DNA of 64,000 nt. Source: Phycisphaerae bacterium. Its GTDB lineage: Bacteria; Planctomycetota; Phycisphaerae; UBA1845; Fen-1342. Below, in pieces: positions 5,180 through 31,904 of this stretch. Location of the stretch: assembly GCA_017999985.1 (NCBI GenBank), contig JAGNKU010000010.1, forward strand, positions 1-64,000, given 5' to 3'. Both the position numbers and the translations under genes were made by a program. Position 1 is the stretch's first letter, and the number at the start of each line of letters is the position of its first letter. Under the pieces are notes generated by a model that saw only the letters and a program-made list of their open reading frames with translations, was not told where the DNA came from and searched no databases.

Positions 5180-7087
5180 ATGACCGCGACACCGATAATT
5201 CTGAAGGCGCTCGTCCACCCGCGGCTGCCACTGATGGTGACCGCGCTCGCTGTGCTGCTGATGCTTCCGGCGCTCTGGGTCGGCTGGCAGACCGATGACT
5301 ACATGCACCAGCTCGCGATGCAGCGGCCGGCGGAGTTTCGCGACGTTGTGCCGCCGCCGTTGCTGATGTTCTCCTTCGTGCCCGGCGACGCCGCGCAGAC
5401 ACACCGCCTGATGGACATCGGGTGGCTGCCGTGGTGGACGTACGACGGGTTGCGGCTGGCGTTCTGCCGGGTCGTGACAGCGCTGACCCACTGGGTGGAC
5501 TACCAGCTCTGGCCGCGTTCACCCGCGTTGATGCATGCGCACAGCCTGCTGTGGCTCGCGCTGCTCGTGTACGGGGCGGCGTTGGTGTACCGCCGAGTGG
5601 CGCTGGTGGAGCAGCACGCGGCGGACGTCACCCCGTTCACCAGCGGGCCGGCACGGCATGGGTCGGCGGAGCACGGCGCCGCGCTTGCTCCGGCCGCGCT
5701 CGCCGGCCTGGCCGCCGTGCTGTATGCGGTCGATCACACGCACGCAATGCCGGCGGCGTGGCTGGCGAATCGCAACGGCATCGTGGCGGCGGCGCTGGGC
5801 GCGTGGGCGCTGGTCGCGCACGTGCGCTGGCGGGCCGACGGCTGGCGCTGGGGTGTCTTGCTGGCACCGGCGCTGCTGTTGGGCGCGCTGCTCGCCGGCG
5901 AGCTCGCGGTTGGAGCCGGCGCGTACATCGTGGCGTACGCCGTGTGCATCGAACGCGGCCCGTGGCGTCGCCGCATCGCCGGACTTGGGCCCAGCGTGTT
6001 CATTGGTCTGGGGTGGTGGCTCACGTATCGCGCGCTGGGCTTCGGGGCGTACGGATCGGCGTGGTACGTCGATCCCGGGCGTGATCCGCTGGGGTTCACG
6101 GCGGCCGTCGTGGAGCGTGCCCCGATTCTGCTGCTGGGACAATGGGCCGGGCCGCCGCCGGAGTTCTACCTGATGTTTGCGCCGTCGGCGCAGCGCGTGC
6201 ACTGGCTCGCTGCGCTGGCGTTCATCCTTGTACTCGGCGTGGCGTTTGTGCCATTGTTGCGGCGCGATCGGTTCGCGCGTTTCTGGGCACTGGGGATGCT
6301 GTTGGCGCTGTTGCCGGTGTGTGCCACGGTCCCGTTTGATCGGCTGTTGCTGCTGGCCGGCGTTGGTGCGCTGGGGCTGCTGGCGCGGTACCTGCTTTGG
6401 GTGTGGCAGGCGCGCCGCGCGGTGGGCTGGTTTCCCGCTATTGTTGCGGTGGCGCTCGCGGGGCTGCACCTGGTCGTGTCGCCGCTGGCGGTGCCGTTGC
6501 GGGCTTGGAGCACGGCGCGCCTGGGCGGGTTGATCGAGTCCTCGGTGGCGACGCCGGCCGACGATCCCGCGCTGCGCGACCAGCATGTGGTCCTGGTGAA
6601 TGGTCCGGGTGCGATGGTCGGGTCGTTCTATTTCCAGGTCTTGCGCCTGCTGCACGGCCAGTCGACGCCGGCCCACACGCGCATTCTCGCGTCGGGCATC
6701 GACGATGTGACGGTCACGCGCGTGGACGAACGGACCTTGCTCGTGCGGCCGGCGACGGGGTTCGCGCCGCCGCCCGGCACGGTCGCGCCAGGCGCTGAGC
6801 ATCCCTGGTTCAACCTCGGCTACATGCTGCAGAATCTCGATCGGCTGGTGCGTGACGACCGTCATCCGTTCGTCGTCGGGCAGCGCATCGAGCTGACGGG
6901 GCTGGGCATCGAAGTGACGGCTGTGACCGCGGACGGTCGGGCGGCGGAAGCACGCTTTCGGTTTGCCGTGCCGCTGGAGGACCCGTCGCTGCGCTGGATG
7001 CAGTGGGGCGAGCGCAACTTCGTGCCGTTCACGCCGCCGGCGGTAGGCACCACCGTGACGCTGCCGGGGCCGAAGGTGAAGGTGTGA
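5180..7087 (+). CDS. Polytopic membrane protein, GT-C/TMTC-like glycosyltransferase candidate
   Basis: 635 residues with about ten hydrophobic segments. After the first membrane segment comes QTDDYMHQ, an acidic pair at the place where GT-C transferases carry the catalytic Asp in the first extracytoplasmic loop. The HTHAMPAAWLANRNG stretch resembles the HPVHTEAVAWVSGR-type signature of TMTC-like proteins. The C-terminal about 200 residues are soluble and probably periplasmic. If the assignment holds it would transfer a sugar from a polyprenyl-phosphate donor outside the inner membrane. No neighbour helps with the substrate. The fold assignment is inference, and it could be an unrelated membrane protein. 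Confidence 0.55.
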   Translation: MTATPIILKALVHPRLPLMVTALAVLLMLPALWVGWQTDDYMHQLAMQRPAEFRDVVPPPLLMFSFVPGDAAQTHRLMDIGWLPWWTYDGLRLAFCRVVTALTHWVDYQLWPRSPALMHAHSLLWLALLVYGAALVYRRVALVEQHAADVTPFTSGPARHGSAEHGAALAPAALAGLAAVLYAVDHTHAMPAAWLANRNGIVAAALGAWALVAHVRWRADGWRWGVLLAPALLLGALLAGELAVGAGAYIVAYAVCIERGPWRRRIAGLGPSVFIGLGWWLTYRALGFGAYGSAWYVDPGRDPLGFTAAVVERAPILLLGQWAGPPPEFYLMFAPSAQRVHWLAALAFILVLGVAFVPLLRRDRFARFWALGMLLALLPVCATVPFDRLLLLAGVGALGLLARYLLWVWQARRAVGWFPAIVAVALAGLHLVVSPLAVPLRAWSTARLGGLIESSVATPADDPALRDQHVVLVNGPGAMVGSFYFQVLRLLHGQSTPAHTRILASGIDDVTVTRVDERTLLVRPATGFAPPPGTVAPGAEHPWFNLGYMLQNLDRLVRDDRHPFVVGQRIELTGLGIEVTAVTADGRAAEARFRFAVPLEDPSLRWMQWGERNFVPFTPPAVGTTVTLPGPKVKV

Positions 7088-15224: not shown

Positions 15225-15857
15225 ATGGACGGACAGGCAGGCAAACCGGGGCCCCTGAGGCTGGCTGTGTTGCTCTCGGGCGGGGGGACAACGCTGGAGA
15301 ACCTCCTCGCGCGAATCGCTGACGGCCGGCTGCGCGGCGTGGAGATCCGGGTCGTGATCAGTTCCCGCAACGAGGTCCGCGGCGTCCGCATTGCCCGTGC
15401 GGCTGGCTTGCCGTTGGTAATAATCCGTCGGCGGGACTACGGGGACGACGACGCCTTTTCGACGGCGATCACAGCGACCCTGGACGCTGCGGGGATCGAC
15501 CTGGGGGTGCTGGCCGGATTCTTGTGCTTCTGGCGGATCCCGCCGACGTACCTCGGGCGGGTACTCAATATCCACCCGGCGCTGCTGCCGCGGTTCGGCG
15601 GGCGCGGGTTCTTTGGCCATCACGTGCATGAGGCGGTGCTCGCCGCGGGCGAGACGCAGAGCGGATGCACGGTGCATCTGGCGGACAATCAATACGACCA
15701 CGGGCCGATCGTCGCTCAGAGCGTTGTGCCCGTGCAGCCGGGCGATACGCCGGAAACGCTGGCGGCACGCGTGGGGGCGGCGGAGCGGGAGCTGTACCCG
15801 CAGGTCATTCAGCGGGTGGCTGACGAGGGGCTGGCCTGGTTGCGGCAATTCAGGTAG
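15225..15857 (+). CDS. purN: Phosphoribosylglycinamide formyltransferase (PurN)
   Basis: 210 residues. It transfers a formyl group from 10-formyltetrahydrofolate to GAR in purine synthesis. Family signatures are LLSGGGTTLENL at the N-terminus, Asn115 and His117 in LNIHPALLP, and Asp158 in DHGPIVAQ, matching the catalytic Asn-His-Asp trio. The segment after LLP (FGGRGFFGHHVH) is slightly unusual but aligned. No other purine genes are adjacent. Its end overlaps the convergent regulator gene by 8 bases. Confidence 0.95.
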   Translation: MDGQAGKPGPLRLAVLLSGGGTTLENLLARIADGRLRGVEIRVVISSRNEVRGVRIARAAGLPLVIIRRRDYGDDDAFSTAITATLDAAGIDLGVLAGFLCFWRIPPTYLGRVLNIHPALLPRFGGRGFFGHHVHEAVLAAGETQSGCTVHLADNQYDHGPIVAQSVVPVQPGDTPETLAARVGAAERELYPQVIQRVADEGLAWLRQFR

Positions 15858-16965
15858 CGGGCCGACGGGCACAACTGCCGGCGTCGGGCGGGCTGGTGGC
15901 TGGGCGGGCGCGCAGGCACAGGTCCATCAGGCGGTTCACGGCGTCGCGCAAGTGCGTCTGGGCCCCATCCAGGAACGCCGCCGTGTGCACGTCGGCGGCG
16001 GCGTCGGAGATTGGCTTGAAGCCGTAGGACCCGGCGTTGGCGCGCAGCCCGCGGGCCAGGTCGGCGAGGGTATACACGTCCTGTGCGTCGAGGGCGAGTG
16101 CGAGGTCGTTCACCTTTGCCCGTAGCGTGCCCACGAACTCGTCGATCAGCGGGGCGAGCGCCGGGTCCTGCGCGAGGGTGCTGACCAGCGGCTGATCGGC
16201 GAGGGAAGCCAGCAGGTGCTGGAGGGCGCTGCGACTCACGGGCTTACACAGGTAGCCGGTGCAGCCGGCCGCGGCGCAGCGGGCGTGTGTCTCAAGATCG
16301 CCTTGGACGGTCAGACCGACGATGGGCCGGACGAAGGCATTGTGCCGCAGCTCCTCAACCAGCGCATACGGGTCGAAGCTCTCGGTGTCCAGGTCCACCA
16401 GCAGCAGGTCGAACTCGGTCATCGTCGTGAGTTCGGTTGCCTCATCGCTGGTCGCGACGCGTGTCAGCTCCACCCGGTCGCTGCCGAGCAGGCCGGTGAA
16501 TAACAGCTGCGCCGTCTCGGACTCGTCGACGAGCAACACGCGCGTCCGGCGGGCCTGTGGGGCAAACACGGCGACGTCGACCGGACGCTCGAAGGCGATC
16601 CCGACTTCGTAGAGCGCGCCGGAGCCGACCAGGTAGCGACAGCGCGCGATACGACCGTCGACGACCTGCGTGACGCCATAGGGGTCGCTCAACGTGACCT
16701 TGCACCGCGCGCGCGGATAGACGAACTGCCCGGTCAGCAACCCGACGCCCTCGCGGCTGAGATTGCGACCGACGGCGTTGTAACTGCGGCCGTCGTCCTG
16801 GCCACCCGCGACCTCGAGCGTTACGGCGGCGGCGCGGTAGTCAAACCGTCGGGACATGCGGTGGTCGAGCCCGGCCGGCGGGAGTGCCGCGTGATCGAGG
16901 CGGTCGAGCCAGGCCTGGACCGTCAGCGGGTCCACACGGATGCTGCGGGAGAGGTCCGCGGACAC
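15850..16965 (-). CDS. PilZ-REC-HPt-like regulator with mutated HPt site
   Basis: 371 residues from the GTG at 16965. PilZ domain at about residues 35-130 with RRFDYR (39-44) and NLSREGVG (68-75), the c-di-GMP-binding signatures. Receiver domain at about 140-255 with Asp147, phosphoacceptor Asp191, Thr219 and Lys241, all intact. C-terminal four-helix HPt-like domain at about 260-350, in which the phosphorylatable His is replaced by Arg305 (LARGLRANAGSYGF, where the family reads AH.LKG.AGS.G). It may therefore link c-di-GMP and phosphorelay input without passing the phosphate on. The longer open frame upstream overlaps the Nudix gene and is rejected. Confidence 0.85.
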   Translation of the reverse strand: MSADLSRSIRVDPLTVQAWLDRLDHAALPPAGLDHRMSRRFDYRAAAVTLEVAGGQDDGRSYNAVGRNLSREGVGLLTGQFVYPRARCKVTLSDPYGVTQVVDGRIARCRYLVGSGALYEVGIAFERPVDVAVFAPQARRTRVLLVDESETAQLLFTGLLGSDRVELTRVATSDEATELTTMTEFDLLLVDLDTESFDPYALVEELRHNAFVRPIVGLTVQGDLETHARCAAAGCTGYLCKPVSRSALQHLLASLADQPLVSTLAQDPALAPLIDEFVGTLRAKVNDLALALDAQDVYTLADLARGLRANAGSYGFKPISDAAADVHTAAFLDGAQTHLRDAVNRLMDLCLRARPATSPPDAGSCARRPAT

Positions 16966-20926: not shown

Positions 20927-21262
20927 TCAGCCCAGCTTGGCGAGCGCGTCATTCACCGTGGGGGCCAGCTCGAAGAAGCGCACGAGTTGCGAGGCCTGCA
21001 GCACGCCGCGGACGAAGGGGGACGGGCTCGCGAGGATCAGGCGCCCCTCCTGGATGTTGGCCTGCGCGGCAGCACGGACCAGATCACCCAGGCCGCTCGA
21101 GTTCATGAACGGCACGTCGCTGAGATCGACGACGATGCGGGCGCCCGGCGTTGCCAGGGCGCTGGTGACGAGTTCGAGGAAGGCCGTGCTCGGGACGCTG
21201 CCAAGCTCGCCATGCAGCCGCACGATTCGGACGCCGGCTCTGTCTTCGTGATCGACTGTCAT
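20927..21262 (-). CDS. STAS-domain anti-sigma factor antagonist
   Basis: 111 residues, a complete STAS domain of the SpoIIAA/RsbV type. The phosphorylation site region is FMNSSGLGDLV with the target Ser in place. The ATG at 21262 has GAGGT 5-6 bases upstream, and a GTG two codons earlier is possible. It would bind a cognate anti-sigma kinase when unphosphorylated. No sigma factor or kinase is adjacent. Convergent with the membrane protein gene, with only 5 bases between. Confidence 0.9.
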   Translation of the reverse strand: MTVDHEDRAGVRIVRLHGELGSVPSTAFLELVTSALATPGARIVVDLSDVPFMNSSGLGDLVRAAAQANIQEGRLILASPSPFVRGVLQASQLVRFFELAPTVNDALAKLG

Positions 21263-21337
21263 ACGCACCTCGCTTGCGGACTGAGGGCACCGGCCGCGGC
21301 CAGCGCGGCCTGGTCGTCACGGTAGTGCCGCAGCGCG

Positions 21338-22582
21338 CTAGATGCAATACGCGGGCTTCCGGGCGGCGCGCTCGACCAGCAGCATGACGAACGGGTTGAT
21401 GTCGCCGAAATCAGCCGTGCCGTCCGCGTTGATGTCGCCATTGGCGGCCGGGCAGCCGGCGTACGCGGCTTCCCACGCGGGGCGGTTCGCGAGGAGGAGG
21501 ACGAACGCATTGATGTCGCCGAAATCGACCTGCGCATCGCAGTTGACGTCGCCCGGCTGCGCAGGCGCGGCGCGCAACGCGACCAGCGTCTCGCCACCGC
21601 CGGGACTCACGCCGTAGTCGCCGATCTGGAACCAGTACAACTCGCCGGCGCTGGCCGGCAGAGTGAGCGTGTCGATGTGTGGACCCGCGTATTCACCCGC
21701 GCGGGTGCACGAGATCTCGGAGAGCTGCGCGCAGTCGCTGCCAGCGTAGACCGCGCAGAGACCGTCGTACCAGTAGTACGCCACGTCAACCGTCAGAAGG
21801 CCCGTGTCCAGCGGCGTGTAGGTGAACCAGACGTCGTTGCACATCTGCGTCGCGGCCGCGGCGTTGCAGGAGCCCGGGGGGCCGTTGGCAGCGGAGGTGT
21901 TGTTCGTGAAGTAGACCGAGTAGGGCGGCTGGCCGAGCGGCAGAGCCGAAGTGCATGTATCGGGCGGCATGCTCAGCACGTCCGGGCAGGCGAACGTGAT
22001 GCAGTTGAAGCCCTCGAACCAGTTGCCGGCGGCCTCGAGGCACGGCAGTTGCGGGATGGTGCCAAGGCAGCCGTCCGCGGTGCAGCAGGCGCCCACGGGG
22101 AGGGTGCATGCTTTGATGGCGAGGTCGAATGTGGGAATGCAGTCGTTGCCGCCGGTGACCCAGCAATCAATCAGCAGCGTGTAGATGCCCGGCTCGAGAT
22201 GGTGACCGGTCAGGGCCAGCGGTTCGCCGTCGGTGCTGACCAGGTAGGCCAGGCAGGCGGGGCTGGTGGGCGGACACGTCGCGTCCAGCGCGAGGGCGGC
22301 GAAGCGCGTGCCGTGCGGGTCGAATTCGAGGTCGAAGTTGAGGGGCGCGGTGACGCGCAGCTCGTAAACGAGGTCGTGCCCCGCGAAGCCGGCGATGCAC
22401 GAGTCCGGGCTGTCGTAATCGGCGCCGCGGCCGCACGTATGCTGGCCCAGGTCCGCGAACGGCAGTTGGGCGGGGAGCGTGATCACCAGCGGATCCGCAC
22501 AGTCATCGCCCGGTGCCGCCCAGGCGACCACGGCGGACAACAGCGCAACGAGAGAAATCCCCACTACGGCGTGCGAAAACAT
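21338..22582 (-). CDS. Secreted protein with GACC module and dockerin-like C-terminus
   Basis: 414 residues with a signal peptide (cut near AWAAPGD). Two beta-rich sandwich-like segments (about 25-165 and 210-340) flank a single Cys-rich module (VGACCTADGCLG to FNC) of the same type as the repeats in the protease at 1-4627. The C-terminal 60 residues carry two Asp-rich Ca-binding-like loops, GDVNCDAQVDFGDINAF and GDINADGTADFGDINPF, the dockerin-like duplication widespread in planctomycete secreted proteins. GGGAGGT precedes the ATG. Function unknown; extracellular or surface location is likely. Confidence 0.85.
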   Translation of the reverse strand: MFSHAVVGISLVALLSAVVAWAAPGDDCADPLVITLPAQLPFADLGQHTCGRGADYDSPDSCIAGFAGHDLVYELRVTAPLNFDLEFDPHGTRFAALALDATCPPTSPACLAYLVSTDGEPLALTGHHLEPGIYTLLIDCWVTGGNDCIPTFDLAIKACTLPVGACCTADGCLGTIPQLPCLEAAGNWFEGFNCITFACPDVLSMPPDTCTSALPLGQPPYSVYFTNNTSAANGPPGSCNAAAATQMCNDVWFTYTPLDTGLLTVDVAYYWYDGLCAVYAGSDCAQLSEISCTRAGEYAGPHIDTLTLPASAGELYWFQIGDYGVSPGGGETLVALRAAPAQPGDVNCDAQVDFGDINAFVLLLANRPAWEAAYAGCPAANGDINADGTADFGDINPFVMLLVERAARKPAYCI

Positions 22583-30714: not shown

Positions 30715-31066
30715 CGCGCAATGTCCCCAGCGCTCGGTTCAGGCCAACCGTGTCGCGGCCAAACGGTCCGCGAGGACGTTGCCCGACCGGCCGGCGTGAC
30801 CGAGCGCGCGATCGGCGGCCAGGCGACAAACGCGGTAGTGTAACGGGGCCGGGGCCGGGCACAAAGGGGCCGGCGTGAGAATGCCGCGTTCGATGGGCCG
30901 GGCGGCCTCCGCGGTGCCGTGCGCGGTTGGTTGACAGCTTGGGAGCCGGGAATGAGAATCCCTATAATCCGGCGTGGCGGGGCGCTCCGAGGCCCGGAGT
31001 GGCCGCTGCGCGGACGTAACGCGACTGCCGCGCGCCCGCGGGGCAGGCGTGGAGGACACAGCGCGT
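30715..31066. other. Divergent intergenic region between btaB and STAS gene
   Basis: About 350 bp. It contains the TATAAT promoter for the rightward STAS operon. No phosphate-regulon-like repeat is visible for btaB and no coding frame can be supported. Confidence 0.5.
30939..30968 (+). promoter_or_regulatory. Promoter for the STAS-RsbW pair
   Basis: TTGGGA (30939-30944), 18 bases, TATAAT (30963-30968, perfect -10). A perfect TTGACA at 30931 is too far away (26 bases). The leader is about 90 bases and includes GGAGG 11 bases before the ATG. Confidence 0.55.
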
Positions 31067-31432
31067 ATGGATCAGCCGTCTTCGCATCTGAAGATCAAGC
31101 GTGCCGGGAGCGTCGCGGTCGTGGAGTTTGCCGACCGCAAGATTCTCGAGGAGCTGTCGATCCAGGAGATCGGCGACGAGCTCCGCGGGCTGGCCGAGGC
31201 CGAGGCGGGCCCGCAGCTCCTGCTGAATTTCCAGAACGTGGACCACCTGGCGAGCGCGGCGTTGGGCATGCTCATCACGCTGCACAAGAAGGTGCAGGAG
31301 CAGAATGGCGCGCTGAAACTGTCGAACATCAACCGGCAGATCTTCCAGGTGTTCCGCATCACGCGCCTGAACCGCGTGTTCGACATTCACGAGACCGCGG
31401 AGGACGCGTTGGCCTCGTTCGGACAGGCCTGA
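31067..31432 (+). CDS. STAS-domain anti-sigma factor antagonist
   Basis: 121 residues, a complete STAS domain. The phosphoacceptor segment is DHLASAALGMLI, with Ser at the expected place but Ala where many have Ser-Gly. It would be the substrate of the kinase encoded next. Start ATG at 31067. The longer frame to 30974 begins near the transcription start and is rejected. Forms a two-gene partner-switching unit. Confidence 0.9.
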   Translation: MDQPSSHLKIKRAGSVAVVEFADRKILEELSIQEIGDELRGLAEAEAGPQLLLNFQNVDHLASAALGMLITLHKKVQEQNGALKLSNINRQIFQVFRITRLNRVFDIHETAEDALASFGQA

Positions 31433-31466
31433 ACCGCGGCGTGCCCGCCCTGGTCACGGTACGGCA

Positions 31467-31904
31467 ATGAAGGTGCCACCCGATTTCGGTATTGAGGACG
31501 CGGCACTCACCACTGTCGTCGTTCCCAATGACCTCCACCAGCTGCGTGAGCCCGAGGCACGCATCATGGCGGAACTGCGGCGTTGCGGCTACGACGACGA
31601 CACGATTTTCGCGATCAAGCTGGCGTTCGAGGAGGCGGCGACCAACGCGGTCAAGCACGGCAACGGCAACGACCGCTCCAAGAAGGTCCACCTGCGCTAC
31701 TACGTCGACCCGGAGCGCATCGTGTTCATGGTGCGCGACGAAGGCTGCGGGTTCCGGCCCGCGGACGTGCCGGACCCGACGGCGGACGAGAACCTGGAAC
31801 GCCCGTGCGGCCGGGGGCTCATGCTCATGCAGTCGTACATGACCAAGGTGCGCTACAGCGAGACCGGCAACGAAGTCTGGCTGCTCAAGGAGCGGCGCCC
31901 CTGA
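31467..31904 (+). CDS. RsbW/SpoIIAB-type serine kinase (anti-sigma factor)
   Basis: 145 residues with the GHKL ATPase fold. N box FEEAATNAVKHGN, G1 box DEGCGF, G2 box GRGLMLM. Such proteins bind a sigma factor or another output partner and phosphorylate the STAS antagonist. Separated by 34 bases from the STAS gene. No sigma factor lies nearby, so the output may be encoded elsewhere. Confidence 0.92.
   Translation: MKVPPDFGIEDAALTTVVVPNDLHQLREPEARIMAELRRCGYDDDTIFAIKLAFEEAATNAVKHGNGNDRSKKVHLRYYVDPERIVFMVRDEGCGFRPADVPDPTADENLERPCGRGLMLMQSYMTKVRYSETGNEVWLLKERRP

Follow-up and report, generated by a model that had tools for sequence, protein, structure and literature searches.

The PilZ-REC-HPt gene and its surroundings

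The window, that is, the whole stretch of 64,000 nucleotides that was analyzed, carries a gene for a protein in which a PilZ domain, a receiver domain (REC) and an HPt-like four-helix bundle follow one another (Table 1). The gene lies on the minus strand, a point on which the first-pass annotation was silent; a plus-strand reading of 15850–16965 is interrupted by stops and was ruled out. The start codon is a GTG at 16965, with AGGA eight bases upstream, and lies ~100 bases past the stop of an upstream NUDIX gene on the minus strand; the other flanking gene, on the plus strand, encodes a purN-type formyltransferase. These neighbors have apparently unrelated housekeeping functions, and no linked kinase gene for the protein was found within the window.

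Table 1. Coordinates of the PilZ-REC-pseudo-HPt gene and its features in the window.
Feature	Position	Strand	Details
PilZ-REC-pseudo-HPt gene	15853–16965	-	371 aa; stop codon 15850–15852
N-terminal helix, residues 13–26	16888–16929	-	conserved L-D-x-L-D motif at residues 20–24
PilZ domain (PF07238), residues 39–130	16576–16851	-	R40/R44, N68/S70/G73 intact
Receiver domain (PF00072), residues 143–251	16213–16539	-	D147/E148, D191, T219, K241 present
HPt-like four-helix bundle	15913–16164	-	helices at residues 268–293, 297–313, 317–331, 336–351
Arg305 codon, at HPt histidine position	16051–16053	-	
C-terminal family motif C-x-x-A-R-P-A-T, residues C350–T357	15895–15918	-	

Domain architecture and fold

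In Pfam comparisons, the receiver (residues 143–251; 48.1 bits) is the only domain of this copy that passes its cut-off; the PilZ match (39–130) scores 22.4 bits against a cut-off of 22.5 (E = 1.6e-4) and the Hpt match (PF01627, 273–349) 18.7 bits, below the cut-off of 24.6. The two weak assignments are secured by relatives: among 28 family members, the receiver is recognized in 28, Hpt in 24 (E ≤ 0.01) and PilZ in 16. The PilZ-REC-HPt architecture proposed in the first-pass annotation is thus borne out by the Pfam matches of this copy, those of its relatives and the fold of the bundle. Minus-strand translation of 15850–16965 likewise places Asp191 and Arg305 at the residues where that annotation had put them, and a residue check found the PilZ signatures RxxxR (R40–R44) and NxSxxG (N68-S70-G73) intact, as it had claimed. 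The receiver, whose fold matches KdpE (Z 18.7), has every sequence hallmark of its class: the profile match, the phospho-acceptor Asp, the acid pair, the Thr/Ser and the Lys. From the HPt domain, the phosphorylatable histidine of HxLKG is absent, its place being taken by Arg305.

An AlphaFold2 (AF2) model of the isolated bundle has four helices (pLDDT 84.7), and HPt proteins fill the 13 highest rows of its VIA-align comparison (Z 12.6 to 11.0), among them HptB (12.6), AHP1 (12.3), the RcsD/YojN domain (12.1) and the ArcB HPt (11.5). Designed bundles rank next, at Z ~10.9, a modest margin for a helical bundle, so that the case for an HPt fold is carried by sequence homology; with Foldseek, the best E-value is weak (0.038) and the probability 1.00. 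On the model and the homology together, the bundle has an HPt fold. The full-length AF2 model (4-row alignment, pLDDT 67) is too poor for judging how the domains pack.

Loss of the histidine across the family

Homologues came from the genome that holds the window, from 40 relatives, from 114 genomes in the order and from 392 in the phylum. The family was defined as the 109 distinct proteins, duplicates removed, in which a PilZ domain is followed by a receiver and then by an HPt domain; they come from the same order and class, and the named records among the close matches are those of an uncultured Phycisphaerales bacterium, a Phycisphaerales MAG and an uncultured planctomycete. Remote matches on plasmids, all below 30% identity among the five matches listed, were the only ones found there, and a search of viral contigs found no relative.

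When orthologues were aligned at residue 305, the site held Arg in 76 of the 109 members, Gln in 8, Thr in 5, Glu, Ala, Ser, Gly and Val in 3 each, Lys in 2, and His, Met and Leu in 1 each. Histidine is therefore missing from 108/109 members, and a private mutation of this copy, which the first-pass annotation had named as one of two outcomes that would undo its reading, was ruled out. So was the other, a misalignment concealing an alternative histidine, since His reaches 15% of members in no column of the domain. The sole bearer of the histidine (L083) is a distant member whose PilZ domain is not recognized by Pfam, and its sister (L087) has Gly. Loss of the histidine is a family trait rather than a private accident, and Arg is the preferred replacement across the family.

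Among the homologues counted as lacking PilZ, most of which are hybrid kinases with a receiver-HPt end, 31/38 have His at the site (Fisher p = 6e-24 against the family, not corrected for the tree). Some of these 38 comparators are fragments cut off at the end of the retrieved sequence, and two of the 38 (L063 and L067) resemble incomplete family members, which, if anything, makes the contrast too small.

Three long frames of hybrid-kinase type (L174, L175 and L177, from genomes G434, G481 and G010) also end in an HPt domain without the histidine (ARRLKK, ADQLKR and ARQLQS), so PilZ proteins are not the only ones to have lost it.

Conservation and descent

A quick tree was built from the REC-HPt region with the two trait columns left out; many of its forks are weak and the direction of change is not fixed. 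PilZ proteins cluster on this tree, requiring 5 changes vs. 31.5 with shuffled labels. The histidine state likewise needs 5 changes, the exact number of losses being uncertain owing to the weak forks. The median end branch is 0.7 changes per column.

Across these divergent sequences, no other charged position of the bundle proper is as well conserved as the Arg at the site (70% of the family). The rest of the HPt signature is kept, with Lys/Arg at H+3 in 79% of members and the Gly and Phe of the GF motif in 99% and 93%. The N-terminal L-D-x-L-D motif and a C-terminal motif, C-x-x-A-R-P-A/S-T (Arg 90%, Thr 82%), likewise rank with the best-conserved parts of the family.

Conservation of the other two domains is less uniform. 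The receiver Asp is kept in 95/109 members and lost in 14, Lys241 is kept in 98, and both are present together in 90; full PilZ signatures are found in 59/109 and are incomplete in 50, and the PilZ signature, receiver Asp and Lys are all present in 47/109. Because the full signatures are kept in only part of the 109 members, the predicted sensing functions are not universal in the family.

HPt proteins, paralogues and kinases in related contexts

A stand-alone HPt protein encoded on contig C11 of the same genome bears the histidine and is 35% identical to the bundle over the matched stretch (LAHRLKGASGSYGY against LARGLRANAGSYGF). The single gap lies well upstream of the site, around which the alignment is ungapped, so that the His of the stand-alone protein sits opposite Arg305; the two cores differ little (NAGSYGF against ASGSYGY). 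The genome also has 7 GGDEF matches and 10 PilZ matches, in addition to its His-bearing HPts. Two paralogues, on contigs C1 and C7, both lack the histidine at the site: the first has Arg (EARQLKGE), and the second has Thr with a His one residue on (IATHIRVE).

The C1 paralogue and a hybrid kinase whose terminal REC-HPt has the histidine are divergently oriented. Such linkage is exceptional; a kinase lies within 5 kb in 1/20 family neighborhoods vs. 4/18 control stretches, no conserved neighbor kinase was found among the 20 family neighborhoods, and the kinase-linked exceptions (L033 and L185) belong to one paralogue clade.

Relation to known systems

Pseudo-enzymes are already known among two-component proteins (pseudo-receivers, AHP6 and the ChpA Xpt domains). 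Arabidopsis AHP6 is a pseudo-HPt in which the phosphorylated His is replaced by Asn, which makes phosphate relay impossible (PMC7402358); it resembles the bundle in being an HPt-type protein with that His replaced but is a stand-alone plant protein, whereas in the PilZ family the bundle forms part of a fusion with PilZ and REC and Arg is the usual replacement. In Pseudomonas aeruginosa ChpA, only 5 of the 9 Xpt domains carry out phosphotransfer, and the role of the others is unknown (PMC12632253); these too are bacterial HPt-like domains of which some lack phosphotransfer, but they lie within a CheA-type kinase without a PilZ fusion. The HPt domains of E. coli RcsD (YojN) and Pseudomonas HptB rank at the top of the structural matches to the bundle but are phosphotransfer domains that carry the histidine. 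By alignment and tree, the nearest non-PilZ relatives are the REC-HPt tails of planctomycete hybrid kinases, in which REC is likewise followed directly by a homologous HPt; they differ in having kinase cores and, in most cases, the histidine, both of which the PilZ family lacks.

A search of open-access literature found no paper on PilZ-REC, PilZ-HPt or PilZ-REC-HPt proteins or on the missing histidine. A large survey of HPt proteins excluded hypothetical and partial sequences in which the conserved histidine was missing (PMC4558063), so this class may have been overlooked. The PilZ-REC-pseudo-HPt protein thus represents a real, conserved and apparently uncatalogued variant with a predicted role. 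A bacterial family in which an HPt domain that lacks its histidine is conserved beside an intact receiver and a predicted c-di-GMP sensor opens a direct route to roles of the HPt fold beyond phosphotransfer.

Proposed function and alternatives

From the signature residues we infer an input from c-di-GMP, an input from a phosphorelay and a bundle that would be unable to accept phosphate, as the first-pass annotation had proposed. The receiver can probably be phosphorylated, because this copy has the full catalytic set and most of the family retains both the Asp and the Lys. In the hybrid kinases of ArcB/BarA-type relays, the receiver passes phosphate to an HPt domain. Transfer to this bundle via a histidine is impossible, and the protein would therefore be a terminal response regulator. 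Judged by their sequences, the members of the family are probably orphan terminal receivers that respond to c-di-GMP. We also infer that the bundle retains a non-catalytic contact surface, because the residues typical of an HPt domain near the site (L-K/R, G, G-F) are kept and Arg is strongly preferred.

The explanation to which we give an even chance as a whole is that of an orphan terminal regulator with a c-di-GMP-reading PilZ domain, a phosphorylatable receiver and a pseudo-HPt that serves as a docking module. The PilZ domain would read c-di-GMP, and a hybrid kinase or a true HPt would phosphorylate Asp191 in trans. The C-terminal HPt fold would have lost phosphotransfer but still serve, without catalysis, to bind receivers or as a docking module, which may bind the protein's own receiver in cis or kinase receivers in trans; c-di-GMP and phosphorylation together would then gate a protein-protein output through binding by the bundle. 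The rarity of linked kinases and the patchy retention of the PilZ and receiver signatures weigh against this explanation. Contact between Arg305 and the protein's own receiver is no more than an idea, and direct docking on Asp191 is not supported: the two residues co-vary before correction for the tree (p = 0.0096), but over independent pairs on the tree the signal vanishes (median p = 1).

A rather unlikely alternative is that the pseudo-HPt acts as a decoy in trans, competing with real HPts (e.g., that on C11) for the receivers of hybrid kinases, with c-di-GMP setting its availability. It would fit with this that the genome encodes a real HPt with a closely matching core, and AHP6 may inhibit its relay by just such competition with AHP1-5 (PMC7402358); however, the protein's own adjacent receiver would compete for the bundle, and most genomes lack a linked kinase.

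It is doubtful that the bundle, after fusion of PilZ to REC-HPt, is a mere structural remnant, a folding or dimerization unit that binds no receiver. The erosion of receiver Asp and PilZ signatures elsewhere in the family would fit such a history, but the retention of Arg and of the GF and ARPAT motifs in divergent members argues for a maintained function beyond that of a scaffold.

We consider it equally improbable that the conserved-Arg pseudo-HPt mimics an intramolecular phosphotransfer complex and caps the receiver, with c-di-GMP and phosphorylation jointly releasing an output surface. That the HPt is normally active, with this copy damaged or another histidine used, is highly improbable; the histidine of the distant member L083 would favor it, but that protein lacks a Pfam-recognized PilZ domain and stands against the rest of the family, in which no alternative His column exists.

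Other features of the window and genome

STAS-domain genes and a HATPase_c_2 (RsbW-type) gene occupy 20927–21268 (minus strand), 30974–31432 (plus strand) and 31467–31904 (plus strand) of the window; the genes at 30974–31904 are likely a partner-switching pair, with an orphan STAS protein besides. Dockerin-like terminal repeats (GDxNCDGxVxFGDINxFV) occur in two probably secreted proteins of the same genome, encoded at 21338–22582 of the window (minus strand) and at 5841–6563 of L033 (plus strand). At positions 1–823, starting at the window edge, a 123-base unit is repeated ~6.7 times in tandem (87% matches) within a plus-strand open frame.
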